Below, piece after piece: positions 1,137 through 52,700 of a stretch of 64,000 bases of DNA. Position numbers and translations under genes: made by a program. Within the stretch, counting starts at the first letter, position 1. Every line of letters starts with the position of its first letter. This stretch comes from Protonemura montana (Eukaryota > Arthropoda > Insecta > Plecoptera > Nemouridae): contig OX387608.1 in NCBI GenBank assembly GCA_947568835.1, positions 5,122,001-5,186,000 on the forward strand. The letters are read 5' to 3'. The notes below the pieces were generated by a model. That model was not told the DNA's origin. It saw only the letters and a program-made list of their open reading frames with translations, and ran no database searches.

Positions 1137-4100
1137 GTGAGTAATGCGTTGCTGCATAAGAGGTTGGGCAGCCAAAGCTCGGGTGATATGTAAAGGAACT
1201 TATTTGGTGGTCAACAATAGTTGGGTTAATTAGATGCGACAGAGCCTTGTTTGAAGTACGCTAGGTGGGCGCAGGTTGAAGATGAAATTAATTTTTAAGG
1301 ATACCTTGGTTTCTTCGTTTAAAGATAGAAAAAAAGTTGACAAAAATATGAGGTTCAAAATAGAAAAATGATGTTCTTACCACGGCCGACTCTGAAAAGT
1401 GAAAATAAACGTTTTTCTCGCATATTTTCCTCTCAATTCATGAGTTAAAATTAATTTTTCATAAGTTGTTTGGAAGACGCGTACGAAGCTTACTTAAAGA
1501 AAATTAAGATATTTTGACACCTTCGAAAAAGAGCAGGGAAATCTGTATTGTAGACTCTCATTATGGAAAAAGGAGACGATTTGCAGAAAAAGGCTATTTG
1601 AAGGGGAAACATTGGGGAAAGCATCTTTTGGTTTGTGTTGCTACCAGTGAAATTATGGCTAATGTGAAGTTTTCTTGAAAATTGACCCTTGTTTTCTCTC
1701 CCAATGCAGGTGGCCAAGGATTTTAGCTCGACCAAGCTGTGGCGAAGAATATCCATCGCGAATGGACGCCGCTCGAGCAGCGAGATCGACATGATTAACA
1801 TCAAACTGCGAAAGGTATTTCAATTGCCGACGATACAATGGAGAGACTCACTAACTGGCATGCTACTGCAGGGAAAAAACAATCTGCAATATCAGCATGT
1901 TATGGGTTTTCTTATATTAAAATTGACTTGTAAAGCGACGATTTGCTCCAAAATTCGTCATATGGCACTATTCATTTTCATTCGATTGTCCAATCTTAGT
2001 CTCGATATTTTGACAACTTCTCGTGCGATGTGACGAATACGATTTTGACTTTCATTTTTTAATCTTTTTTCCTAATGTTCCATTGAGCTTGCGAAGTGGA
2101 ACTACCATATTTTGCTCTTGGCACGTTATCCGTACCAGCAGCTAATTGTACCTATTCAAAAGAACCAAAAGACCTTACCTTTTACCTGTCACATCCAGGA
2201 TCGCATTTGTCTTCTTTACAAAGCAGTTGTATACTTCCTGGAGTAGGAGTACAATAATTACTCCACAGCTACTTGCAGATACTTCTGGGCTATAAATTCA
2301 GTGTTCAGGTTCACCGCGTTCCGCGGATTTCCACTCTCGCTGCGTCGTTTGTCTGCGCTAAGAGGACTCGAAGGCTGGTTTCGCTTTTAGTAGATAAATA
2401 ATCAACTGTCTTGGGAAACGTCGTGACCTTTGTCTAGTGACTTGAAGTCAAGGTGATTGATAACGAGAATGGTTTTTCTTTGTTCTTTAGCAAGAAAGTT
2501 GATATCGGTGTCATGTTGGATTTTCTTTTCTGTGCCAATAGATTGACGATACAAACATTTTGTAAGATATCCAAATTTCCTCCAGCCCAGGTCAAATTTT
2601 TCCGTTATCCAAGGACTAGTTTTTAAAACGGCTTTTTCAACTTAAGCTAGCAACTTTTCTAATGGAAAGAAAGCTTTTAAGTTTAGAGAAAATTCAACTT
2701 TTCCACTTTCGTCTTCAACTAGCTTAAAAGTTGCTGGGAAAACAGTAATATTTTTCATTTAGCAGTTGGATAGCATCGATAGATGTTTATCAATCGTTGA
2801 GCTAAGCAGTAATAAAGATTAATTGAGTGTAAACCAGTCTCAAATGCGAGTAATCTGCGAGTAATAACGTAATAAAATTTCTCAACACTCATAGTGACTC
2901 TACCTAGCAGCAACTACCATTTTGTCGGTAGAATTATTGACAAAAATTTAACAGTAGCACCATTGAACTAATCCAAAATACCCATTTAAACCATGAAAAT
3001 CTTTCTTCCAACGACCGCGTAGCGAAAATAGTGCCAATTTAGGTTCCTTTTCGTGATGCTCCGTCTTTCGATGTCCAACTACGTTCGCAGCGTGCTAGTT
3101 TCGCTGAAGTAACATAAGAGCGGTCACGCGAGAGATGCTGTATACCCGGACATCTCCTCATACCTTTTAGCATCGTATTTCTAGTGTCGTGCTGCGACGG
3201 TCATGTTTCTCATGTATATGTAACAGCATGCTTCTGGGGCGATCTAATGAGCAAGAGAATTCGGAGTCCGCAAGTCCGTTGTTTGAAATCTAGAAACAAC
3301 TACTTACACTTTCGTTACGATCTCATTTAATGGGCTTTGAACGAATTTGTAGTTGCTCAAAAACAAGTCATTATTTTGGCACGTTACATAACTATTTTCT
3401 TCAAATGAGGATCGTCAGCTTTCTGAATACAATGACTATAGATTCTGACCTCACGAAGTTGCATGTTAGATTATAGAGAATATAGACCTCCTGGGAATAT
3501 TTATCCACTTTCCATTTAAATTCAGAACATTGCTTGGGTGCAGTCATTTCTAATGTGGACCATGCCTTTATCTTGTATTTTTTATACATGATATTTAAAA
3601 CGATGTCTACGCAGTCTACGCAGTGATATAGTGGCCAATGTACTCGGGTGTATGCAGTCCACTCAGTGATGTTGTGGTCAATGCACGCGGGTGTACGCAG
3701 TCCACCCAGTGATGTTGTGGCCAATGCACGCGGGTGTACGCAGTCTACGCAGTGATGTAGTGGCCAATGCACGCGGGTGTACGCAGTCCACCCAGTGATG
3801 TAGTGGCCAATGCACGTGGGTGAACGCAGTCCACCCAGTGATGTAGTGGTCAATGCACGCGGGTGAACGCAGTCCACCCAGTGATGTAGTGGTCAATGCA
3901 TGCGGGTGTACGCAGTCCACCCAGTGATGTAGTGGTCAATGCACGCGGGTGTACGCAGTCCACCCAGTGATGTAGTGGCCAATGCACGTGGGTGAACGCA
4001 GTCCACCCAGTGATGTAGTGGTCAATGCACGCGGGTGAACGCAGTCCACCCAGTGATGTAGTGGTCAATGCATGCGGGTGTACGCAGTCCACCCAGTGAT

Positions 4101-7100
4101 GTAGTGGTCAATGCACACGGGTGTACGCAGTCCACCTAGTGATGTAGTGGTCAATGCATGCGGGTGTACACAGTCCACCCAGTGATGTAGTGGTCAATGC
4201 ACGCGGGTGTACGCAGTCCACCCAGTGATGTAGTGGTCAATGCAAGCGAAAACTAAATACGAAAACTCACTATAAAAACTAAATTTTGCTATGAAAACTC
4301 TGAAAATGGCATACATTTTTAATCTTCCCCCTCCCCCCACTTCCTTGTCGACGGAGCATAATCGTATCCACATTTTCAGCACAAAATCCCTGGCTATTTT
4401 CTTGTATTGGCAGAGAATCAAAGCATAGCCACTTGAGGAATGTGAGAGGCTTTTTTCATCGTGTACTAATATCAAAGAATCGTCTAATTGCAAGAACTAA
4501 TTGATACCTGTTTGCCCTGAATGCTGCATGTTTCACCAAGGACTTGATTGAGGTTTCAGGATCAGGATTGCCACGACGTGACCAAGGACGATGACGTGAC
4601 GACTGACGGACTACCAGGACTTTGAGGATGCACGGACCTTTGTGACAAAACTAACAGACACATGACTTGGAGACACAGAGGCTAACAGATAGTTAACTAA
4701 CCATGGATTACCTGACGAGTACTTTGTGAGGTTGGGGAAATTATTTGATAAAAATGCATTTTTTGACAGATTGAGATTTCTGGTAGGGGGGGGGGGGGGG
4801 GAATGGGTCCACTTTGTTGTGAACAGTTTTGACAAATCGTTTTCATAAATTGTTTATGTTTTTATTCTTTTGGAATACAGCTTGAAATGTACTAAATTGA
4901 CAGCTTGGTTTTGGAATTAGGAATGGTTAGACTTTTTGAGACAGTTGAAAAAAAAAACAGCAAACGTAAATTGCTATCAATGGGCAATTGCTGATTCAGT
5001 CAAAGGAAGAAAATATTCACAAATTAAAAAGAAATATCAAACAATGTCAAACCTAACTTTTTCTCCAGAAGTAAAAAGATCTTGACCATGGCATGTGAGA
5101 TCTTTCTGAGGGAAATTTGCTGATTTTGCTGAAATATAAACAATTCAAAAGTATTTACCTGGTATGAACTCATCCATATCATCTTGAGAAGAAGCAGCTG
5201 CAAAAATTCTGTACAACAATTCGAAAAGTCAACCCCCATCGAAGCTCAATGCATAATTGTTAATGTAACACTTTTTTTTTTCTCTCGATGACCTGTAAAG
5301 ATTCCCACATCGTCACAAAATAAAATGAAATAAAACTAGATGGTAAAAAAAGTCAATACGGCCCAAACTCCCTACTATCAGGTCAGTACCCACTGCCCCT
5401 GTCTTGACCGTAATCTCGTATCCTTCTTGCAGATGGCCGTCGACGTGCTAGAGTGGAATCACGACGAGGTCAAGTTCGCGATGGAAGGACGCATGCTGTA
5501 CACCAACCCCACCGACAACAACTGGAGAAAGGGACGCACCATCAAGCTGAACCCTATCAACGCATTGTTGGTCACCAACGGCAAGGTAACCGTGATCATC
5601 CAGGTCATAGCACGTCTTCATTGTCATTCCAACACCTTTGCAAGGTGGTGAACCAGTTCCACATCTCGGGGTAAGAGATGCTCAAAGGAAAGTTAATGGT
5701 GGACTGGAGGATAGGATGCCTGTTTTAGTGTGTTGATATTGGTCCAAATGAAGGTTTTGCATTTTTATGAGCATGGTTATAACACAGGTATCCTCATTCG
5801 GACTAATGACAAACCAATATTTTGTATTTGATCCCTTTGGAAATAAAATCATTATAATTATTATTAGGACAGTTTGCTAACGTTTCTCCCGTTATAACGC
5901 AGATATCTTCTGGGTTGTGTTCAACTGGTTTCAGTCCCAGATGTCTCGGGCTTTATTATTCTGCCTACATTTGACCCGAGTCCCAGTTGGTTTATGCCCA
6001 TGATCAAGAAATGTGCCATGTTTTACTTGATCTACGATGAATCGGGTGCATTAATGCCTAGCTAACGACCCGTTAAGACTGAAAGCGTGACACCGAATTC
6101 TTGTTTTGCTAACGAATTGTTGTCCCGTTGTCCAGCAAACCGAAGACTACCGTCCCGAAGACGAGCTGCTTCTGTTTCCGAGGAAGACGGGCGTCAAGGA
6201 GGCGACCCTCCTGCTAGTCAAGGAGAAGTGTGGGAGGTACTCGCTGCTGAGGGTAAGTTCTTTGTACAAATTTCGCTTAAAATGGTGAGCTCGAGAAGTG
6301 GTAAATGGAAGGGGGTATGCTTCCGAGAAGCCCTTGTTGTAATCGAACTGCGCTGAGTCAGGTATTGGATGGGTGACCATCATACACATGACCAGCTCTG
6401 TTTGGGAGAGAGGTTGGAGGGATGAAAGTTAAGCAACACTGCGCTGGGTCAGGTATTGGATGGGTGATCATCATACACATGACCAGTTCTGTTCGGGAGA
6501 GAGGTTGGAGGGATGAAAGTTAAGCAACACTGCGCTGGGTCAGGTATTGGATGGGTGATCATCATACACATGACCAGTTCTGTTCGGGAGAGAGGTTGAA
6601 GGGATGAAAGTTAGTACAGCAACTTTACTCGCCTTGCTTATCAACCTCTCGACAGCATGGATTTGTGGAGGAATCCTGTTGTTCGCGTTCTACCGTCCTT
6701 TGAAAGGGGCTCTTAAGCTAGTGGTCCCCTTGGTGCTCTTCAACGGAGTAGGCTACGTGCCGGCATCGGGTTCACAAACATTTTCGATTCTATTTCCTTA
6801 CAAAATCTTGAAATTAGGAAAATCACTATTGGGGCCTACTTTGGCCTCCCCAAGGGAGTATTTGGAGAGCTATTCGGAAAATATTCAGGAAATTGTCGGG
6901 ACTGCTTTAACCCTTGATAAAGTATTAGGTACAAGTTACGAAACGTTAGGAAATTTAGTTTTTCTCACTTAGCATTCAAACCCCAGTTGAAACATGTGTA
7001 AACATGTGTAAAGCTAAAACAATGTTTTCTATGCCATGACAATTTTAAATGGACATCATCACCAAGCCCTCGGGTTTTGTAGTTGGCCAGCTCAAGTCGA

Positions 7101-9493
7101 TATTCTTGTCAAGGAAAAAATTCTCCTGCCATGAAATGACATCTAAAACCCGGATATCTTTGCAGGACCCTCTCTACCTGGACAAATGCATCGTGTGCTG
7201 CGAGACGGAATGGGAGGACTACATCGAGGTCCAGGAGCTCGCCTCCAAAGACACTTTCATTTTCAAGGTACGTCTTTACGCCACTCGGGTGCCAGAGTCG
7301 GGATTTGGAGCTCCAGACTTTGAAGCCATACTTTTTCGTTCACAGCCAAACGCTCTCCCTTAACTCTGAATGAAGTATTTTTTCCGTGGGAAACTTAGCT
7401 CTTATGAGCATGTATTTCAATCCAGTAGCCAAGTCTGCTAGTAGGTATGTCCTGCCACAAGAACAAGGGGTCTTTTCTAACTCTAAGCCAGTGCCACTAG
7501 ACAGAGAAAAAAAAATCCTGGCAGTTTCAGTAATATTGTTGTCCTTGCAGTGAAGTCCACGGATAATCAAAAAGAGACAAAGCTTCCCGGAACTGTTCAG
7601 GACAATTGCTTCACTTACAGTTGCAAAATGATTTCAAATTGTAAAATTTGAGTCAATAACAATAGCAGCAATAGCAGTAAAGAAACGAATTTCAATTAAT
7701 GAGTTAGAGGATATATTTACTATCATAAAATGTCTTGTCAATTTTATGTTTCGAACAATAAATTACCTAACATTTTATTCCGTTTGTCCGCAATCATTTT
7801 TATGATGCGAGATGTAATTATCGAGAACTCATTTTCGCACATTGTAAATCGATTGTAAATGAGAACGATTGTAAAAACAACATATTTCCGTGAATTTCCT
7901 CACCTTTCACAGAATAAAAAGCTGTAGCCACTCACCTTTCAAAATGGGATACTTAAAAAAAATACCTACATGGCTGTGTACACCAATTGCAGCTAACAAG
8001 GTATCCATGGACTAAACCCACGTGGGCGTATTATTTTAATTTCACACATGTCATGGTTTAATAACTCGTGTGCGTAGGTGGATGACAGGTATAGGAGTTG
8101 AGTCACGGGTTTGAATCTCGGGTAGAGCTGTTTTCGTGACATTTACAAGGATGGGTGTTGCTTTTCGTGCGTCCGTGCTGCTTGGATCTGATTCGAATTC
8201 CTCGGGGGAAAGGTTAATTTTTAATGTATGCATATGCTTGTGTTTTATTCCTTCAGCAAGCACATGGCATTACCTGAAAGTTTACTTCTAAGTCTAGTTC
8301 TGATTTGCTAGCATCGCATTACTGATCAAATCCAAGCGTATCATTGCTAAATTATTTTTATTGGTCACTTCAAAACAGATCATTAACTTGGGAAGAAAAA
8401 TGTTAAATGTCAAGGTTTTTTTGTTTTGCTTATGACGGGTCAACCTTTACAGCAAGCTTAGGTGTAACCAATCTGGTCCATGTAATGGTAATTTTCATTT
8501 TCTAATTATATTATTATCCGACTGCAAAGGGAGTTTGTTTGACATCCCCACCCTAACCATATGTCAAAATTATGACTAATTCATTTGGTTTGTCTCAAAG
8601 CATACAAATCAAGTTCAATTCAAGTATTTTAAACGGGTATCTAAAATTGCACGAATCCCACGTTTTTTTTTTAGGAAGTGATGAATTTGGGAAGACTAAA
8701 GCGAGAATTAATTAAAAGAGAATTGAGGTTATGCATTATGGAGCTAACGAAACTCTCAGGGTTGAATTTGCACAAATTTTTGCAACTTATTCAATCAAAT
8801 CGGGTGGTAAGGGCATGGTAAGAAAAGACTCTTTCTTGCTTATGGATTTACGAATCAAGCCTTCTTCATCTAACACTAGCACTAGTGAAAAAAAAAAAAA
8901 AAAACAGTTTTTTTAACTGTTTGTGGAAAAACTACCATCAGCGTAGGTTTTTTTACGGACTCAAATCATTGTAAACTATCCTATGTGAATCCAAAAGTTT
9001 TTGAAAGTTTGCGCAATGCAGCGTTGGCTAATTGTTGAAATAATGGCAAATAATCTCACCCCAAGTACCATTTTTTCCCCAAAATCAATGCTAAGAAAGT
9101 CCCAGAAACAACAAGACTTTGTCACTATCGCCCTAACCTCATAGAATGTGGAAACTGTTTTAATTCAATGCTCAAATTAATCAGAAATATCTTCGGACTT
9201 CCTAGAACTCGAGACGAAAGTTGTAATCAATGTTAAAATATTTGAGATCGATACCTAGGTCCATAAAAAACAAATTTTTAACGTCTCTTGACAAAGTAAA
9301 AGAAGAAAAGTTGCAATTTGATTTCTTGTGGATTAAAATCTATCTTTTGTGCTATTTTCAGGCAGAGGACAGCGAACGGACAAAGCTGTGGTACCGTCAA
9401 TTGCAATATCACTCACAAGGGCTGGGAGCTTGGCGACGACGACGAAACGCTCTTGCGAACATCATGATCAACGGCATGATGACAAGAAGCTAA
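996..9493 (+). CDS. Dbl-family Rho guanine-nucleotide exchange factor, 3' part (six exons)
   Basis: The six exons are 996-1136, 1710-1814, 5433-5585, 6136-6252, 7166-7267 and 9362-9493. All are phase 0 and bounded by AG/GT, and they encode 249 residues plus a stop. The first exon carries PVQRVTKYPLLL, the signature of the last conserved helix region of DH domains, followed by the long helix QHKIELHLEHMN. Exon 2 is the DH-PH linker. Exons 3 to 6 form a PH domain: EGRMLYT in an early strand, and LWYRQLQYHSQ as the C-terminal helix with the typical Trp. A basic tail, AWRRRRNALANIMINGMMTRS, ends the protein. By family, it should catalyse GDP/GTP exchange on a Rho GTPase at membranes or actin. The DH N-terminal half and everything upstream lie outside the window. 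It resembles the insect GEFmeso/PLEKHG-like group, but I cannot settle the orthologue, so no symbol is given. Confidence 0.9.
1137..1709 (+). other. RhoGEF intron
   Basis: Intron of 573 bp between GTGAGT and TGCAG. AT-rich, no recognisable repeat. Confidence 0.8.
1710..1814 (+). CDS. RhoGEF exon 2: DH-PH linker
   Basis: The exon has 105 bp (35 codons). The acceptor follows a pyrimidine tract (TTTTCTCTCCCAATGCAG) and the donor is AAG|GTATTT. It encodes VAKDFSSTKLWRRISIANG and then RRSSSEIDMINIKLRK. A Ser-rich, basic linker of this kind between the DH and PH domains is typical. The donor is the weakest of the set. Confidence 0.82.
2745..3000 (+). mobile_element. Family C MITE, partial copy 1
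   Basis: The sequence shares the family core GTAAACCAGTCTCAAATGCG, the ATCGATA..TGTTTATCAATCGTTGAG segment and the TTTAACAGTAGC-type terminus. The 5' inverted end is lost. Confidence 0.75.
3613..4243. repeat. 43-bp minisatellite with 172-bp higher-order period
   Basis: About 14.6 tandem copies of a 43-bp unit (AGTGGTCAATGCACGCGGGT, then GTACGCAGTCCACCCAGTGAT). The variants recur every four units: 3678-3920 and 3850-4092 are almost identical at a 172-bp offset. It lies inside a RhoGEF intron. The minus strand has no stop in any frame over most of the array, because 43 is not a multiple of three and the unit lacks minus-strand stops. The minus-strand ORFs are therefore probably artefacts. Confidence 0.95.
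4786..4801 (+). repeat. G16 homopolymer
   Basis: Sixteen consecutive G on the + strand within a RhoGEF intron. May form G-quadruplexes or reflect slippage. Confidence 0.9.
5433..5585 (+). CDS. RhoGEF exon 3: PH domain start
   Basis: The exon has 153 bp (51 codons), with acceptor TTCTTGCAG and donor AAG|GTAACC. The peptide runs from MAVDVLEWNHDEVKFAMEG to NPINALLVTNGK. EGRMLYT matches an early beta strand of PH domains. The initial Met is internal, not a start codon, because the phase joins exon 2 cleanly. Confidence 0.88.
5586..6135 (+). other. RhoGEF intron
   Basis: Intron of 550 bp between GTAACC and GTCCAG. No repeat family recognised. Confidence 0.8.
6136..6252 (+). CDS. RhoGEF exon 4: PH domain middle
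   Basis: The exon has 117 bp (39 codons), with acceptor TTGTCCAG and strong donor AGG|GTAAGT. The peptide starts QTEDYRPEDELLLFPRKTG and ends KCGRYSLLR. The alternating hydrophobic strands fit PH-domain sheets. Confidence 0.87.
6347..6770 (+). mobile_element. 5S-derived SINE (family A), copy 1, with head triplication
   Basis: The 5S-like segment ACTGCGCTGGGTCAGGTATTGG...GGGAGAGAGGTTGGAGGGATGAAAGTTAAGCA occurs three times in tandem with an exact 91-bp period (starts 6347, 6438, 6529). The normal SINE body follows (CTCGACAGCATGGATTTGTG...CGGAGTAGGCTACGTGCCGG). The copy stops at about 6770, so its 3' tail is missing. It lies in a RhoGEF intron in the sense direction. Confidence 0.88.
6890..7000 (+). 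mobile_element. Family B element, copy 1, with hammerhead-like motif
   Basis: GTCGGGACTGCTTTAACCC, then TTGATAAAG, a short hairpin and GTTACGAAACGTTAGG (motif at 6911-6950), then AGCATTCAAACCCCAGTTGAAA. It matches copies at 14.6, 46.5-46.9, 49.0 and 50.9 kb. It lies in the intron before RhoGEF exon 5. Confidence 0.7.
7166..7267 (+). CDS. RhoGEF exon 5: PH domain later strands
   Basis: The exon has 102 bp (34 codons), with acceptor TCTTTGCAG and donor AAG|GTACGT. The peptide begins DPLYLDKCIVCCETEWEDY and ends LASKDTFIFK, a pattern like the strand just before the C-terminal PH helix. Confidence 0.87.
7268..9361 (+). other. RhoGEF intron, 2.1 kb
   Basis: AT-rich intron with a possible tRNA-derived SINE at 8068-8240 and an A tract at 8887-8904. 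No exon signals seen. Confidence 0.75.
8068..8240 (+). mobile_element. Possible tRNA-derived SINE
   Basis: GTGCGTAGGTGG resembles an A box and GGGTTTGAATCTC a B box about 35 bp later, as in tRNA-headed SINEs. The acceptor arm is not recognisable and no second copy was found in this window. Confidence 0.3.
9362..9493 (+). CDS. RhoGEF terminal exon: PH C-terminal helix and stop
   Basis: The exon has 132 bp including TAA at 9491-9493, with acceptor GTGCTATTTTCAG. It starts AEDSERTKLWYRQLQYHSQ, the amphipathic last PH helix with its conserved Trp, and ends with a basic tail. The 3' UTR follows directly. Confidence 0.87.
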   Translation, partial: AEDSERTKLWYRQLQYHSQGLGAWRRRRNALANIMINGMMTRS

Positions 9494-13935: not shown

Positions 13936-14607
13936 TATTTCTGGGGTAAGTGAAATCGGAGATTCCACTCCTTTCGTTCACTCGTTACGCTTTAAAAAAA
14001 TAAAAAATGCATATTTATATTTTTTTGGACATCAAAGAAAGTCATAGTGCTTTTGACACCTCATTGAATTTTGACACTGCCTGTATGTCTACAGACCTAG
14101 AACTAAATTTAATTTATTTTTTTTTAATTTTGAATTATAATTCGCACAGCTTTTTCCTAATTATAAATCAAGTCAAGGTGCCAGCATGTACAGCTACATC
14201 TAATTACTCCACCAGGATGAGTTGTAAAGAAATAATCCAGGCTATAAAATTGTTTTTTCTGTAAGGAATATTGCTAGCCTATTTTTGAAGGCTATGCAAT
14301 CTTAAAAAAAAAATTATGGATAGGCCATTCCTTTCTCTAGGTTGCAATCTTTGCCGTCTTTAATTACTACTGGTAGCTTGTTGTTAACTTTCCTGCCCTC
14401 GTTGAGAATGTACCTTTGAATGTCGTCGAGTCAAGACAGCATTTGCCGGTCCTATCTCAACCCGCATCGCTGATCGAGCTTGTGTGTGGTAATAATTAGC
14501 ATACAAACGAAATACTGAAGAGGATGTGGTTAGGATTATTGGCAGATGATCAAGCCAACACGGTTATGTCACTCGATTTAAATTATAAAACTATTCGATT
14601 GGTTTAT

Positions 14608-14816
14608 GATGGTTTTTAGACTCATGTCTACTTGATTTATCCTAAGCACTTGCTTTAACAAAAACTATTTGAAATGGGTTTTGAATGCTAAGGCTAAGTA
14701 AAGGACAACTAAATTTCCCGACGTTTCGTAACGTACTAGTTACTTCTTCAAGGGTTAGAGCTTATGAGAAAATAATACGGGTAACCCGTATTATTTTCTC
14801 TAAGATTAGAGCAGTC
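14608..14816 (-). mobile_element. Family B element, copy 2 (reverse), interrupted by a palindrome
   Basis: GGTTTTTAGACTCATGTCTA, the GAATGCTAAG segment, and the hammerhead-like motif on the minus strand at 14717-14755. A 35-bp near-perfect palindrome (14766-14800) sits between two TTAGAG copies in the promoter-proximal part. Confidence 0.78.
14766..14800. repeat. Palindrome with 17-bp arms
   Basis: GAGAAAATAATACGGGT, one A, then its exact inverse complement. It is flanked by GTTAGAG and ATTAGAG, consistent with a small hairpin inserted into the family B copy. Confidence 0.9.
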
Positions 14817-17500: not shown

Positions 17501-19436
17501 AACAAAGTTCATCAGCTTCATATCTCCCACATCGACGGCATCGACCCTTCCCCGACAGGCAAAATCGCCTCGAGAAACCTCCAAATCACTCCAAACAACA
17601 ACCTCTGCACTGCCGACCCAAACTCATAATTTCACTTCGATCTAAAATTATCCCAAATCATCAAATTAGCATCCCACGTCTCCGAGAGACACGCCCAAAC
17701 CTAGAATCGCCCCACCAAATCTGCACAAACCACGATAACTCTTCGTGGCCGAGCGGTCGAAATCGTTTATCGCGTCGCGGCGCTCGCCGGCTGATTTGTG
17801 TGCCATTGTGCGTGCATGGCTTTACACCGCTGCGTCGATGACATGTCCCGGTCACATGAGATCATCCTCACATTTGGTCTAACGCACACTATTACATGGC
17901 AGCCACCACCCAGCGAGCGCGACTATAATTCCCGGCCATCTTGCTACCGCTACACGCCCAGTTAATCTACGATCTTGTCCGATTTTTACATGAAATTACC
18001 TGTGTAGAAGCTAACTTCATTCTCATGTGAATGGGATCTGAGACGGTGGCTATGGGAATGAATGGCTGCGATTACCTTATTTGGGACATAAATTATGAGA
18101 TTGGTGATTTATAACGATTGGTGAGGAGGTTGTTTGCATGGTTTGGTTTTTTGGTGAATGTCAGAGATCCTACATGATGATTTTTTGCGGGCTTGCCGCT
18201 CAGCCAGGGGTAAGGATCGCTTTGACAGATATCCCGCAGTATATTGCAAGTACAGAGCATTTTTCGCCTCATAATTAGTAGGTACTTTTTCGTCTATTTC
18301 TTCTGATTTGATTAGCAAAGATCGCTCATGATTTTGATAACAAATCTGTCAATTACCTCACTTATTTTGAACCTCCTTGACCAAATTTGAGACACTCGAT
18401 TTGAGCGTTCTTATCTCAGTGTGCAACACTTTTATATAAGAATCGTCAGCACTTTAAAGAAGATACCAATTGTTTCTTGCACCGACGTTAGGGATAGGAA
18501 TTTTATAATTTGAGTAAGTTCTAAATTGATTAAAAACTGGAAAGAAAACGAATCAAACTAAAAATATAACCGAGGGCGCCTCAGGATGTAGTTGATTATT
18601 GACCAAAAATTAGTCTTAAAAAGGTTTTACATCGTTTTAGTAGAACTCATCAATGAAATAAAAGACAGGCTAGCTTGGACTGACCACAAAATGTACCCAA
18701 AGTATTATAGAATCTAAATCAGGACTCAGCGATTCCCATAACAGATTCTGCATATTATTCAAGGACTGATTTGACGTGTTCTACAGTTTTACTCTGAATA
18801 GAGGAGGTCCTAAAGGAATTATACTGAAGAAATGATCCTTCTCCTGAAGATGGCGAGCCTTGCTGCACCGAAACGCCAAGATTTTAAACCCTTTTAGGGT
18901 CTCAAACTTGTTCTATCTAAAGCAAAACCGTCAAAAACGTAAAATCATCATACACTTATCCAATGATTACAACTAAAACTAAAATTCTGTGCTAATCTTC
19001 ATCGTGACAAACACACGTTACGCAACGCAGAGTGCAAAACGTGGTTGAAAAAACACAAACATTAAAGATTTTGCAGACAAACTCGCCGCTAGTAATATCG
19101 TGCCCGTACGTACTATTGTACCGGGAGGGTTACACTGGGAGAATAACAATCTTTGAGTACCTAATTTGCACAGCACACTTGTATTGTGTACAGACGGCCG
19201 GTGCATCGTAAAGTGAATTTTTTTCTCTTCTTTTATTATTGATATTAACATTTCAACCGCATGCGTTCTTCACGCCGACGGTGGCGATCCTGGAATAAAT
19301 CACTGGTACTTTGTGCAACAGTCTGGCGGAAGTGTGGTGAAGTCATTGTTTTAATTTTGTGTTCAATTCATGACGCGAGTGAGATTCACCGCGAGCGCCT
19401 AAAACGGGTAATTACCTGAAAAATGCTTTTTACATA
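17501..19436. other. Intergenic, mostly unrecognised
   Basis: Contains a CpG-rich stretch at 17660-17900 and a second CTGAAGA...GAAACG motif at 18845-18880. No exon could be justified. Confidence 0.45.
18845..18880 (+). ncRNA. Isolated hammerhead-core-like motif
   Basis: CTGAAGATGG, a GC-rich spacer, then CACCGAAACGCC: CTGANGA and GAAAC in the right order. The intervening helix pairs poorly and the surroundings do not match family B. A decayed Penelope-type terminus is possible; activity is unlikely. Confidence 0.25.
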
Positions 19437-20395: not shown

Positions 20396-20844
20396 AACGA
20401 ATGGTTTGGCGTGTTGGAAACACCGGGCTTCGTGAGATCACCGAAGTTAAACAACACTGCGCTGGGTCAGGTACCATCACAGTGAGGGTACCACCATACA
20501 CAAGACCAGTTCTGTTTGGGAGAGAGGTCGTAGTGATGAAAGTTAGTACAGCAACTTCACTCGCCTTGCTTATCAACCTCTCGACGGCATGGATTTGTGG
20601 AGGAATCCTGTTCGCGTTCTACCGTGATTCGGAAGGGACGTTATGCCGGTGGTCCCCTTGGTGCTATTCGACAGGAGTAGGCTACGTGCCGGCACCGGGT
20701 TTTCCCTCCTCTCTTCTAGACTAAGTTAGGTTCATCATCATCCTCATCATCACCCTCTCATTCACCGACGCCTTTTGACTAGTGTCACAGGGCCAGTTGT
20801 CAAACCAGTGCGTCTTTAAACACCACGAACAAATCAATCGAAGG
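20396..20844 (+). mobile_element. 5S-derived SINE (family A), full-length copy
   Basis: The head GGTTTGGCGTGTTGGAAACA, then GATCACCGAAGTTAAACAAC, resembles the 5S rRNA internal promoter region. The body contains CTCGACGGCATGGATTTGTG and CCCCTTGGTGCTATTCGACA. The tail ends GTCTTTAAACACCACGAACA before AAATCAATCG. TCTGAC at 20390-20395 and 20845-20850 may be a target duplication. An ORF through it (20401-20724) is not conserved in frame among copies. Confidence 0.88.
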
Positions 20845-23006: not shown

Positions 23007-23465
23007 GGTCATTTAGTTATTATTATTATTTGTGGTGTTTAACGACGCACTGTTTTGACATCTGGCCATGCGGCACTGGTCTGATGGCGTCGGTGAATGA
23101 GTGGATGATGATGAAGATGATGAACCTAACCTAGCTTAAAAGGGAGGAGGGGAAACCCGGTGCCGGCACGTAGCCTACTCCTGTCGAAAAGCACCAAGGG
23201 GACCACCGGCTTCACGTCCCTTCCGAAGGACGGTACAACTCGAACAGCAGGATTCCTCCACAAATCCATGCTGTCGAGAGGTTGATAAGCGAGGCGAATG
23301 AAGTTGCTGTACTAACTTTCATCCCTCCAACCTCTCTCCCGAACAGAACTGGCCATGTGTTTGACGGTCACCCATTCAATACCTGACTCAGCGCAGTGTT
23401 GCTTAACTGCGGTGATCTAACGAGAACCGGTGTTTCCAACACGCCAAACCGTTCGGTGGTCATTT
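23007..23465 (-). mobile_element. 5S-derived SINE (family A), full-length reverse copy with TSD
   Basis: The element spans about 23015-23457. The tail reads TTATTATTATTATTTGTGGT then GTTTAACGACGCACTG. The head is at the right end (GAGAACCGGTGTTTCCAACA, CGCCAAACCGTTCG). GGTCATTT occurs at both edges (23007-23014 and 23458-23465), which fits a retroposition target-site duplication. Confidence 0.9.
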
Positions 23466-32545: not shown

Positions 32546-32872
32546 GCCATTGTCTGGCCGAGTTCATCAATGTCTGGACCGCCACCTCGGTCGAAGATAA
32601 GATCTGGTCTCGCAAGATCTATGACCGCTGCTGTGTTATCGCGGCTCGTGATCGTGACTGTCCTCTAAGTGGTCAGTGATCAGGGAAGGAGGCCTTTTTT
32701 TTGGCACGTCGCTCCAGGATTTTTGTACGCGTTTTTTTTTTTAGGAGTACAGAAAAAACGGGCGCACTTTTGAGTGTTTTCAAACACAATTGTAACAAAT
32801 AATTCATTCGTTTCTTTGCGTCCAAAAGTCTCTGTACAAATACAAATCAAATGAACAGTTAGAAATCGTTAC

Positions 32873-33302
32873 CGAACGGTTTGGCGTGTTGGAAACACCG
32901 GTTCTCATGATATCACCGAAGTTAAGCAACACTGCGCTGAGTCAGATATTGGATGGATGACCATCATACACATGACCAGTTCGGTTTAGGAGAGAGATTG
33001 GTGGGATGAAAGTTAGTACAGCAACTTCACTCGCCTTGCTTATCAACCTCTCGACAGCATGGATATGTGGAGGAATCCTGTTGTTCACATTGTACCGTCC
33101 TTCGGAAGGGACGTGAAGCCGGTGGTCCTCTTGGTGCTCTTCTACAGGAGTAGGCTATGTCCAGACACCGGGTTTCCTCTCCTCCCTTCTAGGCTAGGTT
33201 AGGTTAATCATCATCCATTCCTTCACTGACGCCATTACACCAGTGCCACAGAGCCTGATGTCAAAACAGTGCGTCGTTAAACACAACAATCAATCAATCA
33301 AA
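32873..33302 (+). mobile_element. 5S-derived SINE (family A), full-length copy
   Basis: AACGGTTTGGCGTGTTGGAA, the ATCACCGAAGTTAAGCAACA head, the full body with GTGGAGGAATCCTGTTGTTC, and tail GTGCGTCGTTAAACACAACA followed by (ATCA)n. Confidence 0.9.
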
Positions 33303-35198: not shown

Positions 35199-35819
35199 AT
35201 TTGACTAATTACAATATTATATTATCAGCGCTCTCATGGGGGGGGCACGGGGGATGGTGGAAAACCAGTCTAGCCATGGCAAGCACCAGGTCGGCAATAG
35301 CATTTATTTAATTTATTAGCCTTTGAAGCATATTGATGTGTTGAGTTTTTTTATTATTATTTTTCTGAAAATGGCGCATACACCTATTACGGCGTTATAG
35401 TTCTGTTAAATTAAGGATCCTGTGACGTAGATACTTTTGTTGTTCATATCGGACTTGCTCTGTTGAGATTGGCTTGTGGTCCTAAAAAGGATCTAAAAAG
35501 TCGACGTTGCGTCGGTGGTGGCACCGACATCTTCAGGACTTCAGGGCTTTTGTCAAGATCTTTTTGATTTTATTTACTGGCTGATTCGAAACTAGTGTCT
35601 ACAGGTAACCATGAAATAAATACAGGAGCTTTTAAAATGTCGAAACATCATACTACATGCATGATCACTTTCATGTTTGTTTTCTTTACAATCATTGTTC
35701 ATGTCCCCTGCATAATGCAGTAATGAACTCATACTGTCTTGCAGGGTAAAACAAACTCAAAAATATAATTCCGAATCGGTAGTAGACCATGCGTTAATAA
35801 TAAGAATATTGCCATCTCT

Positions 35820-36003
35820 CAACCGTTTGGCGTGTTGGAAACACCGGTCCTCCTGAGATCACTGAAGTTAAGCAACACTGCGCTGGGTCCAGTATTGGAT
35901 GAATGATCATCATACTCTTCAACTTTGGAAGAGAATTCAGCACCAGATTTGCTTCCTCTTTTCAAGCTTTGACCAGTGCCTCAGGGCCAAAGAAATTAAT
36001 CAA
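35820..36003 (+). mobile_element. 5S-derived SINE (family A), internally deleted
   Basis: The intact head (CCGTTTGGCGTGTTGGAAAC to ATTGGATGAATGATCATCAT) is joined directly to tail-region sequence (TTTGACCAGTGCCTCAGGGC). Confidence 0.8.
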
Positions 36004-43700: not shown

Positions 43701-46700
43701 GTTAATTGGTAATATTATCTTTCTATAAAGTGATTTCTATTTTAATCAAAAGTTTGTTTATGAGCGGTGTGCTTATTGCTAGGTCGGCTCGTTTCAGGTA
43801 GCCAGCTTGTGATTGGCGTGCCATTTGAAACTGTAAAGGCGTGGACGGTAGATTGAGATCCCGTAACATGGGGAACCTAAGACTTTACCTGTAGGTTTCA
43901 GGGAATTGGATTTGGAAATGACAGATTTTGAGGCAAAGGGATTTTTGTGTTTCTCTTATTGGAAAAATAATTTGAATTTTCTCCAAATTTTCATTGAGAA
44001 ACCTGGGATGTAGCAGCGACTAAAAAGTATGCCTTACCAAGAGAAAAATAAAATCAAACAAATATTAAATACTCGCCGCCCTAATACGTATTAAATCTTT
44101 AGCCCAGTTCGGTTATTATAATCACACCGATCCTCTGATATCCTTTGCCTCCACTAGTTGCTACTTAGCGAGCTTTAATCGTCTCTCACGCATTCCGCAA
44201 CGTCAGTCCGTCACATTCCATAGCGATGCGTCGTTAAACCTGTCCCGTCAGACAACAAGCCGAGCCGGGCCGGGCGCGATCGATAGCTATCAAATAGATC
44301 GATTTAATTGATGAAACGCCGAACAATACGGTGACTGGCACTATAGCCGGCCCACGCCGAACAGCTGTTGCGTAGGGACTAGGGTACGAGTTGATTGAGA
44401 TGGTGTTAGTCTGGTAGGGCAGATGTCGAAAGGGCAGTGGAGGACCGATATGGTTTAGTACTTGCTAGCGATCCTGCTTGTTGGACTAGGTTAAGCAATA
44501 TTGAGACAGGTTGGGGATTGGATGGGCGACCGTAAGTGGATTACGGAACTGATTGAGATTACTCTCCTAGGGTGTCGTTGTTTTAGTGCTTGTTAGACAA
44601 CGTACGTTTGTGTTGGAGAGTTGAGTTGAGCAACATTGGAACAGGCTGGATATTGGATGGGTGACCGGTAGCAAGTAAATCGCTTAGAGTATTTCTGCCT
44701 ACAGTTACGCAGCCGATTCGCAACGAAAAGTATTTTTCTTGTGGTTTTTAGACTCATGTCTACTTTATCTAACCTTAGCACTAGTTTTGAAAACAACTGC
44801 TTTAGGGGAAAGATTCCTGCATTTTTTTATTTTTTTGTTTATTTGACGCACACTTTGTGCGGCCATAATTCTCACCACTATTGTAGAAGGGAATTTGTTT
44901 ATTTGTTTGTTTGTTGCCCCCCTTTGTTTATAACATTTCTATGTGCGGGTTCTTAACTCAAAGTAATCTGCTTTCCGAGAAAATGCTGAGTGATAAAGGT
45001 TCTAGGAATTACAATTAGATACCTGTTTGATTATTTATCTAATTAAACTCTTACATTTGAATTTGTCTGACCAAATAAATGACCGGCAAGCTTGAATGGA
45101 AGTTCTCGTGTCATATTTAGCCCATGTTCCAGCGCCAACTCTAGGTTCTTATTGCAGCTCGTTTGTAATGCCCCACTGAGAAAATGTTGAGGTAATTTTA
45201 ACTATCGTAACTGGCCACTGACGAACACATTGTTGCGTGCCTACCAGTGACGTGAATATATTGGAGAACGAAGTCGCGTTTAATGAGAGTGCAACTATCA
45301 AGAAACAGACCAAAATTTCGACAGGTTTCCTGGCCGCAGCGTTCAAGTTAGAATTCTAGAAATCAAAGATGTTGTAGACAAAGAATTAAACTTCTGAACA
45401 ACAGGTTTATTTTTTCAAAAATGTGTTTTGTTTGCCTTGTGCGCTCTCGTCACTTTTGGCAAAAAAAAATAATTTCGAAAAAAGAACCCTGTTTTTAATA
45501 ATTTTAATTCTTTATCTACAACTTACTCGATTTCTAGAGTTCTAACTTGAACGGTGCGGCCAGGAAACATGTCGAAAGATTGGTCTGAAATCGGTGGAAA
45601 CCTTTACCTTAAAATTTGATTTTTGAACGCTAAGTAAAAACACCTAATTTTTCCCCACGTTTCTCAACTTGTACCTGTTAATTCATAAAAAAAGGTTGAA
45701 AGCATAAGTCGCGAAACGTCGGGAAAAATATATTTTTTTACCAATGATTCAAAAATCCAGTTTTAAATAGGTTTTTCAGTATTTTTCTTGCGTAAGGAGC
45801 ATAACTCTCAATTAATTTTATCTATATTTTATGAATCAAACACCTTGAGCATAAAAATGACAGCTAGCTTTATACCTAGCTATTTATATGATCGACCATG
45901 CTTACCTGTAAAAAATAAAGACAGATCTCCTGTAAAGCCAGTAATGCCAGTAAATACACTACTAACTGACATAGCTGAGGGTCAAAATTATCATCTGAAT
46001 TCCCATAACTCGCGTTTATAACCGAACATATCGATAACCTTGATCACAGAAATCAATAAAGTTAATTGCAAAGCTCACCGCGTGCTCACTTGATAAGAAA
46101 CTCTTTTACAATAACAGACAAATTGCCAATACTTCCAGGGGCTACTTCAAGACGTTTGATGTAAAAGATGACAAGGCGTTCGAATCTCTGACAAGGCTCG
46201 CGGCATTGCACGGATTTTTCATAAATCTTCATTGTCGCCAAAAGGCGATTCCACTTTACTAAACTGATCACCGTCGATCACCGGCCACGTCGAGTGTCCA
46301 CTTGACTTACCCGCGTTGCGTCAGGGGAACTCGCGGTGCGTGGCGTGCGTGAGATTGATAGTTCAGAGTTAGGCTGTCAAATCTTCAGATGTATCGTAGC
46401 CTCGAAACTACATTTCACTCCAAGACGGAGAGACACGAGCTTCAGAACTAAGGGAAATTTCGTTTTTATGTTTTTCGTTTCGGTTTTTTTTCTTCTATTT
46501 TTTAACGAAATTTACGCGTATGATGGTTTTTAGACTCATGTCTACTTGATTTATCATTAGCACTAGTTTTAAGAAAAACTATTTGAAATGGGATTTGAAT
46601 GCTAAGTAAAGGACAACTAAAATTTTCCGACGTTTCGTAACATGTACTAGTTACTTCTTCAAGGTTTAGAGCAGTCCTGACAATTTTCCAATCAGAAAAG

Positions 46701-49700
46701 AACCACACAAAATTATAACAATTACCTAGTTCAAGCACCTAGTTCAAGTTCATGCTTGAACTAGATAATTGTTATAATTTTATGTGGTTCTTTTGTCATC
46801 GGAAAATTGTCAGGACTGCTTTAACCCTTGAAAAAGTAGCTAGTACATGTTACGAAACGTCGGGAAATTTTAGTTGTCCTTTACTTAGCATTCAAAACCC
46901 AGTTCAAATAGTTTTTCTTAAATTTACGTGTAGTTTCTTAAAAATGCGGCGAAGCGTTGCTTTCTGCCAAAATCAGTGCAGTCACTAGTTCATAAGTTTG
47001 TTCAATCGTACATCGTGGTAAGAAAAGTAAAGTCTTTGTTAATTGTCTTAAGAATGTCTTTGAATGTACAGATATGTCATCGGTAGGTACTTAAAATTAA
47101 TTTTTTATTACATTCTATATTCTATTTAAGAGACAATCAAATTAATTCTAGAACATCAGTTGAGTCCTTAATTACAAAGACCTGTGTATTGACCAAAAGG
47201 TATCAAATTTTTTAGTTCATAAGCTAATATATTGTGGTAAAACATCTTGATGGAGTCCTCTCGGTGTCGGGCGTAAGTGGCGACAGCTTCTTTGTACCAC
47301 CCGTTAATTGCGTCGACACCTATGAATCTGTTACCTATCTGTTACCTCCACAACCTGGGAGTTCATGATCTGCTACAGCCCATGGTGTGGTACAGCCCAT
47401 GGTACAACCCTTCTTTGTTCGAAACCTCATCGCTGTATGGAACATTGTCTCAGGTCGTGGAGCTGGGCGCTGTGCATTCCTTCACTCCCAGCTCACCGTT
47501 CAAAGACAAAAGAGGAATTAAAAGAAAAAAATATGTTTTTGAAAGTATATTTTGAATGTCAAGAAGAGTATATTTTCCCAGCGTTTCGAAGCATGCATGT
47601 AACATGTTACTTTATCAGGGGTAAAAGCTCCCTTGTAGACTTAACTTCTCTTAAAAAAGAACGCTATACCAAAGTAAAACAACCATAAACATAAAGTAAC
47701 AAAACTCCTCCCTAAATTTTATAAAATTCAATACCAAATTTGGAAATCGTATTTTTCAAGCTCCTGAGTCTTAAAAACGTTTGAACAAAGAGGGTTCCTT
47801 GCCCTCCCTCCCCCACCTTGTTTCTTGTGGGAGGCACACGGCCACGCGGTAATGGTGACACGCGGGAGGGGCGTGTTTTTCAATTGTTGCCCTGCACAGG
47901 TACCTACAATTGGAGACGTAATTCGATCACGTACCGGCGACAACCGGCGTACCGGCGGAATTGGAAAAAGGAGATTCGACGCTTGTTTTTCTTCATATCC
48001 CGCGCTAGGAACAACGCTGTTGAAAAATGTGGAACATTTTCATAAAGTATTGGAGCTGTGGTCGCAAGTGATGCAGATTGCTGCACAGTGATAACCTAAA
48101 ATCGAGCTAATTTTTTAATGGTTCTGTCATTGTATTTTTGATCAACGAAAAAATATCGGTTTCATCGCGTTTTTTTCTTTTGTGCCGCTTAGATTTCTGT
48201 GTCGATACATTGATCAAGAAGAGTTTGATTGTTCTGGCCGAGTCGTTTCGCGCGCATAAATATAGCATCTTTCATCTCGCAGAAAGAAATATTCTTGCCA
48301 ACGGTAATCTGAAACGGAAAAAAAAGGATCGCTTTGGAAGTGATTTACGATGTATCGACGTATTTGGAGCGGGATGGCTTCAATTTCGTTTTGTGCAGAT
48401 TCGCATTCTGATTAGAATAACAGTTTGTTACATATACCTACCCCCCGTCGGTTGTTTGATCTGAAAATATCTACCGCCCTGAACGAGCTGAGAATTTATG
48501 TATACCTATGGACAAAATGTATACAATTGTTTTGTCATTTTAAAAAGTATATGTATTATTGTTTCTGAAAAATGCCCGTATTTGTTAAATTATGATTTTG
48601 ATTTCATTTTCCAGTTTGTTTTGTGAGTAATTGTATTTGTATTTTTTAAGCGTAACGAACTATATTCCAGGCAATGGTTCTCTTTTTTTTTTACCAAAGC
48701 TAATATGTTTATAAGTACTTATTGAGATTTCATTTATAGGCTGTGGTATGCCCCTTCATTTGTCACGGCTCTTCATTGTCTTCCGTGGTTCTCTACCATC
48801 CCATGCCTTTCTTGGTCTTCAACTTCACGCCGTTTTCACTTCTCTCTTCCACATCTTCTCGCACTTTTCCCACCCATCATCCTCTTGGTCTTCCTTTTCA
48901 CCTTTTCTAGTATTCTACGTTCAAACTCTTTCTTGAAAATAATATAATAATATCGTTTATTGTCATAAAAAACACTTCTGACTGCTCTTACCTTTGATAA
49001 AGTAACAGGCACAAGTTACGAAACGTTGAGCAAATCAGTTGTTCTTCACTTGGCATTCAAAACCCAGTTTTCATTGATAAAGTAGACATGAGTCTGAAAA
49101 CCATAATCCTTCCCGTTCATTTTCATACATTCCCAAATCGAGTTGTATTGACATTGCAATTAAAATCATGTGCTATTCTTAAGATGAATCGAAATCACCG
49201 TGATTTCCTCAACATAACAAATTACTAACATCAACATCAGTATCTCATTACACATCGCTTCGAAAAACACACATTGTCATTAAAATATGCTTATGTCCAT
49301 CTTTTTTTGGGCTTTTTTTTTTGTGAATGACCGTCAGTATAAAAATTAAATTGGCTTCGTATATAGGTAAGATAATGGGTGAAGACACAAGTGGGGTAGT
49401 GATCACGAGAAGGAATTATCCACGGCTGGCCCCGAAACCCATACTTATGATCGGCAATGTTGATTAGGAAATTCATCCAGCTTTATGAGTTTGTTTATAA
49501 TTATGCTTTAGATCTCTCGACGGAGATAGCAAAGTGTACCGAAGTTTCTCTTCGAAAGCTTATATGGAAACAATCGCAGTGTTTTCGAATGCAGGCGAGA
49601 AAATTACTTAATTAAAACGAAACGTTTAAATACATAACTATTACCGAAGAAATTAATGAATGTTTAATCGGTGAAATCTCGGAATAATATTCCATGCCTT

Positions 49701-52700
49701 GCTTTGGTTGACTCGATGAATGAAAAGGCTTCGCAAAGGAGACTGAACCGTCGCGCAAGTCGCACCTTGTAACATAGAAAACTATATTTTAGTGATATGG
49801 TTAAAAAAAAAGGACACAGTTTTTATGAAAAAAATCGTGAGAAGTTATTTTTGCTTTAAATAAATGTAAAAATTCGGCAACAGGATCTTAGGAAATCAAC
49901 AGAAAAATTAGAATTGTATTTAATTATTTAAGTAATAAATTGAATAAATTTTTATTTTAAACATACTGCGAGTTGAACCACATTGTACAATTCAATTAAA
50001 TTACACATAATCACGGACTTGCATAGGTTTGTATCGTTCAATATCTGTGGTTCAATATTCTTGCTTGTGGAGAAATGTACATACAATTATCATTGAAACA
50101 TACGTCGAATTAGCCACCTTAAAAGTGCATTGACCAACGCAAATACATCACAAAAAAAAGAAGCCCAAAAAATAAACTTGCCAATTTCTGTGATGACTCA
50201 ATTCCAATTTCTCATCTGTTCAAAAGTAATTATCACATCGCTTCGATCAAAGTTGGTCGCCACCGAAAACAAAAAAAGCCCTTGAACTAATTGGTTCTTG
50301 TACGGCGGTCTTATCAGATGGTCTAGTTTGCTCAGCGGACGGACGAGTCAAAGAAGCCGAAATAAGTAACCGTGGCCGAGACAGATTATTATATAATAAC
50401 GCCATGGTTGTCTGTCGCCGGGTCCATCTTGAGTGGTCTTGCCGAGTGGCACCCATCGCGTATGTAACACCTGTGATGTTGGGCCAGCGGTGCACACGAG
50501 GGAGATATCAAATCATGAACCTAAGAAAGAACTAAGTGGGGTTTGAACGCCCACTCAAGTACTATTCGTTTGTTTGAAAATAGTTTGAAGCATCTCTTGA
50601 TGCTTGACATGGGCGAAAACTTTGAAAACCTTGATTTACGGTAAGATGGGCAGTCTAGTTTCAAAAGTATCCAAAACAGGAAATTTTAATTGTATCACAT
50701 AACGTTAGGACAACCTCGAAAAATTGGCGTTTTTTCCATACACATAATTAGTTAGTTAGTAAAAAGCGCCAATGTGTTCGGGATTTATTTCAGAAAATAC
50801 ATAATACATTAGTTTTTAAGTTATTGACCCTGATTATTTTATTTAGATGCATTTAGGATGCTTGAACTAGGTAATTGTTATAATTTTATGTGGTTCTTTT
50901 GTGATTGTAAAATTGTCAGGACTGCTCTAACCCTTGAAAAAGTAGCTAGTACATGTTACGAAACGTCGGGAAATTTTAGTTGCCCTTTACTTAGCATTCA
51001 AAACCTATTTAAAATAGTTTTTCTCAAAGTTTCAAAACTGTTGGATTATTTCTAAAGCAGGTGTGGGACCTCGCAGAAGATAAAATCTGTCTCAATTTTT
51101 TCCAGTTACATGGAGTTGATGTGAATGCGAACCAATCAAATACTTAGCACACTAAATCCGATAGACAGGAACTTATTTAAACACACAGTTTCTTGTCGCT
51201 TCATGAAACCGAACCCTAGGAGACAATTGCTTAGTTGCAGTTAACTTTATACAAATCAGGCGTCATTGACTCACTGTAATAAAAATTGGGATCAAGGTTA
51301 AGCCTGATGGTGTTAGTTCATAATAACGCTGTCGTCTCTATTTACCAATCATACCACAATCCACTGGAGTACCACAAGGTAAATTTACCGGTCCCTGTCG
51401 TGTACCGATAACGCCGCCACTGTGCCAAGCCTCGACCAGGATAATCACGATCACTTCCTCTCCTCGGCTAGTCTCATCTCGAAGTGGTCCACCCGCTGTA
51501 GCCGTATCTTCGCGTCAGCAACCTTGTGCCTGTATCGCCCATGCCGCCCCAGACACAGTGGCGACAGAGCTCATACGCTCGATTCACTGATTTCATTATC
51601 ACGCATCGCGAAACAAATAGCTAATAATGAATGTCAGCTTCTCTTGTGAGAGGGTTCACCGAACTTGTCGACTTTTTGACAAGTGACAGGTGACAAATTT
51701 CCACCTGATTGTGATTTCTCGAGTGTTTTAGTCGTAATTTCTTAGAAATTCGTGATTTTCTTGTCCTGGATCGATAAAAAAAAGGTTCAAGAAGGTGTTG
51801 GCAAGAATTTGTTGCTTGTTGTTTCACACCTATCTTAAAATTAAGAGAAATACGTGTCAACAAAAGAGTTACATGCTGCTTAGCATTTTGTCATGCCCAA
51901 AAATTAAACTTATTTAATTAGTACAAAAAAAACGCAAATCCACACTAAAACCGACCTTAACGCTGATGAGCCATACTCTTACATTCCATTGCTTTACCCT
52001 TTAAAGATCAAACAAACCTATTTTCAATCGCAATCTGTCAGAATCATTGAAAACTAAACAAGAACACAAAAAATAACGTTCCAATATAACCTCTTTCCAA
52101 CCTGCACAAGCTTTCAAAAGTATTCATGTCAAAATGAAGACGTACAATATAAATAGGAATCCCGTAGACCGCCACTAACATCTTACCATCCCACTCAACG
52201 TCTCATAACTTTCAGCATCCCGCCGTGGACCGAGCATCTACCTGTCTCCTTATGTCTGCATTTTCATCTCATACCTAGCCTTTTCATCGCTTTCTAAAGT
52301 AACAATCGTCCATTGTGTCACCGTGCTTCGGATGATTTGTCTAGACAGATATAGTAGTTGGAGGAGGACGCATATTGTGAGACTTCATCGCTATGTTTAG
52401 CATACAATAGTAATATAACAGGGCACACTTACCTGTGCCCGCTCTAGGGCAGCGTCGAAGCGGTCTCTGCTATCAGATCGCTGTTAGAGGATGTGGAGGT
52501 GTCAGACTCTACTTTTGATATCTTTTCATCTGTGCGGCATGCAGTGAGTTATTGGGACGAGCGTGAGGTATTGCGAATTTTACGCGCTTGGGGGTGGAAT
52601 ATTTTAAGAATATTGCCAGTGGGTGCAATCGAGTGATTTAAATCCGAGTTGGATTTCGGCAGCAATTATTGTTTTGTAAAGTCGGCAAGTTATGAATTTT

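Follow-up and report, generated by a model that had tools for sequence, protein, structure and literature searches.

Hammerhead-like motifs of Protonemura montana in probable 5'-truncated insertions of a Penelope-like element, with subfamilies of the core pair 3-8

Motif-bearing repeats in the window

The stretch analyzed here, 64,000 nucleotides of the plecopteran Protonemura montana (assembly GCA_947568835.1, contig OX387608.1, positions 5,122,001 to 5,186,000 of the forward strand; "the window"), contains dispersed family B repeats that share a short motif resembling a hammerhead ribozyme. An earlier note, made from the sequence alone, listed seven copies of this motif and compared them with the hammerheads of Penelope-like elements (PLEs). 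Reading and alignment of the window sequence recover all seven, six at the positions given; the copy placed at 46627-46666 was off by one, its true span being 46626-46665 on the minus strand (Table 1). The consensus of the window copies is CCC-YUGANRA-A-GUAAC-loop-GUUAC-GAAACGUY-GGG, from which single copies depart. Stem II (GTAAC/GTTAC) is preserved; besides the wobbles already described it contains some mismatches, and the proposed CCC/GGG stem I is imperfect in the copies at 6911, 46627 and 48991. The strict core CUGANGA...GAA with an NUH cleavage triplet is found in 0 of the 7 window copies. Every copy is changed at core position 3 or 8, as the earlier note had said with its "C3 to U or G8 to A", but four of the seven are changed at both positions and carry the joint pair U3-A8. 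All seven copies in the window are dead fragments.

BLAST places six of the motif copies inside longer repeats, and the seventh, at 47577, matches nothing beyond itself. The six motif-bearing repeats match the pseudo-long terminal repeat (pLTR) of a PLE located elsewhere in the genome (L093, described below) at 77-91%. Judged from sequence, family B repeats are very probably 5'-truncated insertions of an endogenous Penelope-like retroelement, with the motif as the minimal hammerhead of its pLTR. The insertion at 46517..46919 consists of two pLTR fragments standing head to head, with inverted arms (46568-46737 and 46753-46922) that are 93% complementary; it matches the L093 pLTR at about 91%, its end positions are 143 and 94, and many genomic copies show the same head-to-head arrangement. 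A tblastn search of the window with the L093 protein (E<=1) found no PLE protein piece.

A pLTR fragment is directly adjoined at 14766-14800 by an inverted repeat, whose perfect arms of 17 nt flank a single central base; an inverted pLTR piece follows. The stretch 46666-46823 within the head-to-head pair scores below threshold with several microRNA models, matches that most likely reflect the inverted arms; such arms are a possible source of false microRNA annotation.

Table 1. Motif copies and PLE-derived repeats in the window
Feature	Positions	Strand	Remarks
Hammerhead motif U3/A8, stem I imperfect	6911..6950	+	Read from sequence and alignment
Hammerhead motif U3/G8, loop 2 nt shorter	14717..14755	-	Read from sequence and alignment
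Hammerhead motif U3/G8	46626..46665	-	Sequence, alignment, fold
Hammerhead motif U3/A8	46825..46864	+	Sequence, alignment, fold
Diverged motif relative C3/A8, longer hairpin	47577..47621	-	No significant PLE pLTR match
Hammerhead motif U3/A8, stem I imperfect	48991..49030	+	Sequence, alignment
Hammerhead motif U3/A8	50931..50970	+	Sequence, alignment
Older pLTR fragment	6890..6992	+	77% to L093 pLTR
pLTR end fragment, long end	14604..14761	-	85% to L093 over 160 columns
Long-end (tail) PLE fragment	44742..44798	-	86% to L093 2854-2910
Decayed pLTR fragment	45621..45684	-	77% to L093 pLTR
Left target-site duplication AAATTTACG	46508..46516	.	9-mer recurs at 46920-46928; only two occurrences in the window
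Probable 5'-truncated PLE insertion, head-to-head pLTR fragments	46517..46919	.	Long end left, short end right
Right target-site duplication AAATTTACG	46920..46928	.	Pairs with 46508..46516
Older pLTR fragment with long-end piece 49077-49107	48980..49107	+	77% to L093 pLTR; end piece 87%
PLE pLTR fragment, short end	50678..51028	+	91.5% to L093 pLTR over 352 columns

Penelope-like elements of the genome and the evidence for a hammerhead

At locus L014, coding sequence lies upstream of the motif and shares 22/58 identities with the endonuclease end of L092, which represents a second PLE family (below). When 60 residues of this stretch were compared with the genome (258.5 Mb, 34 contigs), 150 matches were obtained (150 of 234 candidates scored), among which the longest open frames are of 856 amino acids (L094) and 696 amino acids (L093). 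In L093 (C11:2180500-2183700), the order is target duplication, inverted pLTR, a frame for a reverse transcriptase (RT) and a GIY-YIG-like endonuclease (EN), pLTR, and target duplication. The inverted pLTR spans 57-475, the open frame 429-2516 and the second pLTR 2450-2867; the two pLTRs, inverted with respect to each other, are 99% identical, each carries an intact motif, and a 12-nt duplication, AAGTTTAATTAT, lies at 45-56 and 2915-2926. The L093 frame matches RVT_1 (PF00078) at 7.8e-13 and has a YVDD motif; its putative endonuclease was assigned by eye from the motif GVYEVSC..YIGETGR and from 43% identity to L092 over residues 217-665. The L094 sequence comprises 801 bases at the start of the 856-amino-acid frame and shows the upstream pLTR in sense; two pLTRs of like orientation on either side of one ORF were not seen, L094 covering the upstream side. 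An intact motif, also in sense, precedes the ATG of the L094 frame by 122 nt, with the start codon 88 nt after GUC, and the N terminus of the frame is presumably PLE-like. An RT search of the genome, in which all 126 candidates were scored, gave 88 matches at E<=1e-10. On several contigs, PLE RT places close to the ends recur with identical scores (for example, C5:9461-9880, C2:150042-150461, C12:132763-133182 and C14:13008751-13009170), which suggests subtelomeric duplications carrying PLE copies.

The strict core pattern CTGANGAAN{8,38}CGAAACGTC has 729 matches in the genome against 3 for the reversed pattern, and the motif is therefore not a chance pattern. The hammerhead core with its NUH cleavage triplet is present in these 729 matches and in L092, L093 and L094. 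A canonical full-core pattern that put stem II immediately behind A9, and so left no room for an extra base, matched at 0 places. The extra A before stem II, which had been taken for a defect of the window copies, is a family feature, since it occurs in the RT-linked intact copies and an extra base also occurs in the second PLE family. The earlier note had named two findings that would undo its Penelope reading, namely a genome devoid of intact cores and the lack of any link to a Penelope RT. Neither is the case: intact cores are numerous, intact motifs are linked to RT/EN coding sequence in L093 and L094, and the reading holds in that the motif lies in the pLTR of an RT-bearing PLE of the same genome.

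The second PLE family is represented by L092 (C5:298700-303200), whose RT/GIY-YIG-like frame is 43% identical to L093 and matches PF00078 at 8e-13. Its intact motif, CTC-CTGAAGA-T-GACAAG...CTTGTC-GAAACGTC-GAG, starts at the stop of the frame; here too, a single additional base separates A9 from stem II. Compared with the motif of the L093 family, it has the same core and different yet complementary stems. A nine-motif alignment with 7 distinct rows, from which the window motifs 14717 and 47577 were excluded, has 92.9% of the cells of stems I and II paired; with the second PLE family in the set, 4 of 8 stem pairs are changed on both sides, a value reached by 1 of 500 shuffles. Next to the L092 hammerhead on its downstream side, at L092:746-791 (minus), lies a hairpin resembling the histone 3' stem-loop (RF00032; its 24.9 bits fall short of the gathering score, 34). 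The hairpin belongs to a 70-bp stretch that recurs, identical but inverted, at the truncated 5' side of the L092 frame. In the window, a further motif at 18841-18880 (+), CTC-CTGAAGA-T-GGCGAG...-GAAACGCC, resembles the L092 hammerhead; it keeps C3 and G8, its stem II and GUC are damaged. As BLAST did not match its flanks to L092, this motif may be either an old remnant or a chance resemblance.

A number of results weigh against the hammerhead and PLE interpretation. The both-sided stem changes come mainly from the single row L092, and the seven window motifs alone show 0 of 8 stem pairs changed on both sides, that is, no covariation. When nine motifs were folded as single strands, the drawn stems I and II formed together in only 5; the intact L093 motif is not one of these, and when it is folded alone, its CUGA pairs with UCGG in place of hammerhead stem I. 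Rfam hammerhead models have no match in the window even at E<=10, nor in the PLE loci L092, L093, L094, L001 and L061; a genome-wide search with RF00008 also found no match, a result of little weight since the same search was silent in every control genome. As to coding sequence, Pfam GIY-YIG (PF01541) does not match the L093 protein and matches the L092 frame below its cut-off (18.7 versus 22.6 bits, 0.0021), and no U3/A8 copy of the AGGTACAAG-loop subfamily was seen adjoining a PLE open reading frame (ORF).

Could the motif be chance, or a block conserved purely at the DNA level, for instance a promoter or a protein-binding site within the repeat, with no hammerhead at all? The lack of covariation among window copies, the silence of Rfam and the failure of the intact L093 motif to fold the drawn stem I by itself would all suit such a block. 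Three results run counter to it: the excess of strict cores over the reversed pattern, the L092 motif, which combines the same core with different complementary stems, and the position of the motif in a PLE pLTR, where hammerheads have been published (PMC6155905, PMC11167929). We consider chance or a DNA-level block highly unlikely and favor the PLE hammerhead. Rfam hammerhead models missed the intact-core PLE motifs in all four such loci scanned (L092, L093, L094 and L001).

Insertion ends and subfamilies of the core pair

The ends of the insertions were compared in a non-random sample of loci. Thirty are the first 30 of the 729 strict-core places, all on contig C1, and the others are the 30 best matches to window 46752-46925 and 10 each from three other core-pattern searches. 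Among 92 motif copies (loci plus window, without L094), 82 aligned to the L094 reference. Counted from the motif start, the copies end at +85 to +99 in 36 of 82, at +135 to +154 in 41 of 82 and elsewhere in 5 of 82; thus, 77 of the 82 aligned copies stop at one of two alternative ends about 50 nt apart (the tail), and the long end lies slightly inside the ORF since the ATG is at +122. Twenty head-to-head neighbors were found, of which 47580/49027 in the window is not a real pair. Eighteen of the 19 real pairs combine one short and one long end, and L017 combines a long end with an end at +59. Of the 20 neighbors, 13 have flank words of at least 9 nt common to both sides, whereas among 380 mismatched pairs 1 does; the L003 pair has no such word in common. 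L067, L068 and L070, considered as full-length elements because of 1.5 kb in common, were rejected as such: L091 shows a head-to-head pair within a larger repeat, with no long RT-like frame among the frames listed for it, and the three loci, which are counted within the 19 pairs, appear to be copies of one insertion. In L091, about 91-bp tandem repeats (3307-4221 and 7484-8000) form inverted arrays flanking the larger repeat, in which a U3-A8 pLTR pair lies.

PLEs are reported to start reverse transcription at two sites and to have a genomic "tail", and the anatomy of short and long ends found here fits the two internal start sites described for the Anolis PLE (PMC11167929). Reverse transcription of the element RNA would begin close to the pLTR-ORF junction, at either of two internal sites, and so give the short and the long end; many copies would stop within the pLTR, so that just the hammerhead part is left. 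Stem III is limited to the ACGU palindrome; two motifs may pair with each other, a possibility for and against which dimer folds speak equally little. With nothing more than the palindrome as stem III, a hammerhead of this kind would be weak alone, and cleavage after GUC may take place in transcripts with two pLTRs or with the aid of the element protein, as reported for the Anolis PLE. By analogy, the most likely role of the motif is weak cleavage of multimeric element RNA, assisted by protein or by dimer formation.

PLE ORF pieces adjoin C3/G8 copies, U3/G8 copies and one U3/A8 copy (L063), and they are present in 13 of 94 loci (L092 included), besides L093 and L094. Most sampled loci hence show no coding sequence beside the motif, and non-autonomous hammerhead retroelements have been reported from animals (PMC7229834), as would be expected if the repeats formed a separate retrozyme-like family that moves via small circular RNAs and includes no truncated PLEs. 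We give such a family very little credence, since copies with and without RT/EN pieces have the same ends and the same head-to-head pairing, and since the motif lacks a proper stem III. Animal retrozymes have classical type I motifs, which differ from the present motif in stem III.

How are the core states distributed over the genome? Patterns that demand the extra A and GTC, under which GTT copies (6911, 48991) and the L092 type are uncounted, gave 729 matches for C3/G8 (control 3), 924 for U3/G8 (control 7), 278 for U3/A8 (control 9) and 25 for C3/A8 (control 4; 13 of the 25 look like family members by eye), summing to 1,956 over the four states. Positions 3 and 8 pair in 7 of 7 distinct rows of the aligned motifs. 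The strong 2x2 association of these counts would be expected if U3.G8 and U3-A8 had arisen repeatedly after insertion, as compensating mutations in single copies. We used G5A, a plain core loss, as a yardstick of decay: it occurs 23 times (control 10) on C3 and 52 times (control 15) on U3, while G8A occurs 25 times (control 4) on C3 and about 36 times on U3 with the CTAG loop, the last figure being scaled from 13 of 100 listed rows. G5A is thus about as frequent as G8A on both backgrounds once the distinct U3-A8 subfamily is excluded, and that subfamily is marked by a common loop sequence; by eye, the loops of U3/A8 copies are CTAG-type in 13 of 100 among the matches listed, and most others are CAGG-type. 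Repeated compensation is therefore improbable. Since G8A is not clearly above G5A, the U3-A8 excess gives no evidence of many compensations and looks like a founder event of a subfamily. Overall, most of the core changes represent states of the pair 3-8 that belong to subfamilies.

These subfamilies alter two claims of the earlier note. It had seen in the differing core bases of the copies a sign of an intact ancestor; intact relatives do exist, but the differing bases mostly reflect subfamilies. Its doubt about activity is justified for the window copies by the imperfect stem I of three of them and by the fragmentary state of all, although U3-A8 itself is no ground for doubt: covariation of C3-G8 to U3-A8 is a natural variant in several hammerheads, and such RNAs are active in vitro (PMC3088659). 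Tentatively, the PLE lineage may have amplified via three core states (C3-G8, U3.G8 and U3-A8, with U3.G8 most numerous). Either wobble and U-A cores would work with protein assistance, or strict catalysis would be dispensable for mobility, with the 3-8 pair kept for folding or protein binding.

Apart from PLE sequences, the window has 5S rRNA-like stretches at 23338-23456, 32871-32986, 35819-35903 and 20397-20520, which are perhaps a 5S-derived short interspersed element family.

Comparison with known Penelope-like elements and hammerheads

Hammerheads recur in PLEs, where they are minimal and usually without helix III (PMC6155905), yet in the Anolis PLE, whose hammerhead cleaves only when its protein is added, catalytic mutants leave in vitro insertion unaffected (PMC11167929). 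The 1,956 matches split by core state in one genome allow asking whether core activity predicts amplification. Among the titles and abstracts searched, with the primary paper of 2014 outside this scope, none was seen on core-state subfamilies of PLE hammerheads.

The closest comparison is with PAc, a Poseidon-type PLE of Anolis carolinensis (PMC11167929). PAc has an RT plus GIY-YIG frame, to which the RT frame with a putative GIY-YIG domain corresponds here, and in both elements the ends of the genomic copies fall at two neighboring points close to the pLTR-ORF junction. The PAc ORF begins at stem II and its cut site lies 26 bp after the start codon, whereas here the ATG is 88 nt after GUC. 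The tail of Drosophila virilis Penelope, as cited in the same paper, measures 30-40 bp, compared with an interval of about 50 nt between the two ends here. The PLE hammerheads described by Cervera and de la Pena in 2014, as represented in citing papers (PMC6155905, PMC11167929), are alike in being minimal, without helix III and located in pLTRs; the present element differs from them, as far as those citing papers describe them, in its large subfamilies with U.G or U-A at 3-8. The covariation of C3-G8 to U3-A8 is shared with the variants of Perreault et al. 2011, who give "several" examples (PMC3088659), whereas here 278 matches, mostly of one loop type, stand beside 924 with U3/G8. PLE hammerheads are thus already published, and the present PLE adds another such element, with the core-pair subfamilies as its notable part.
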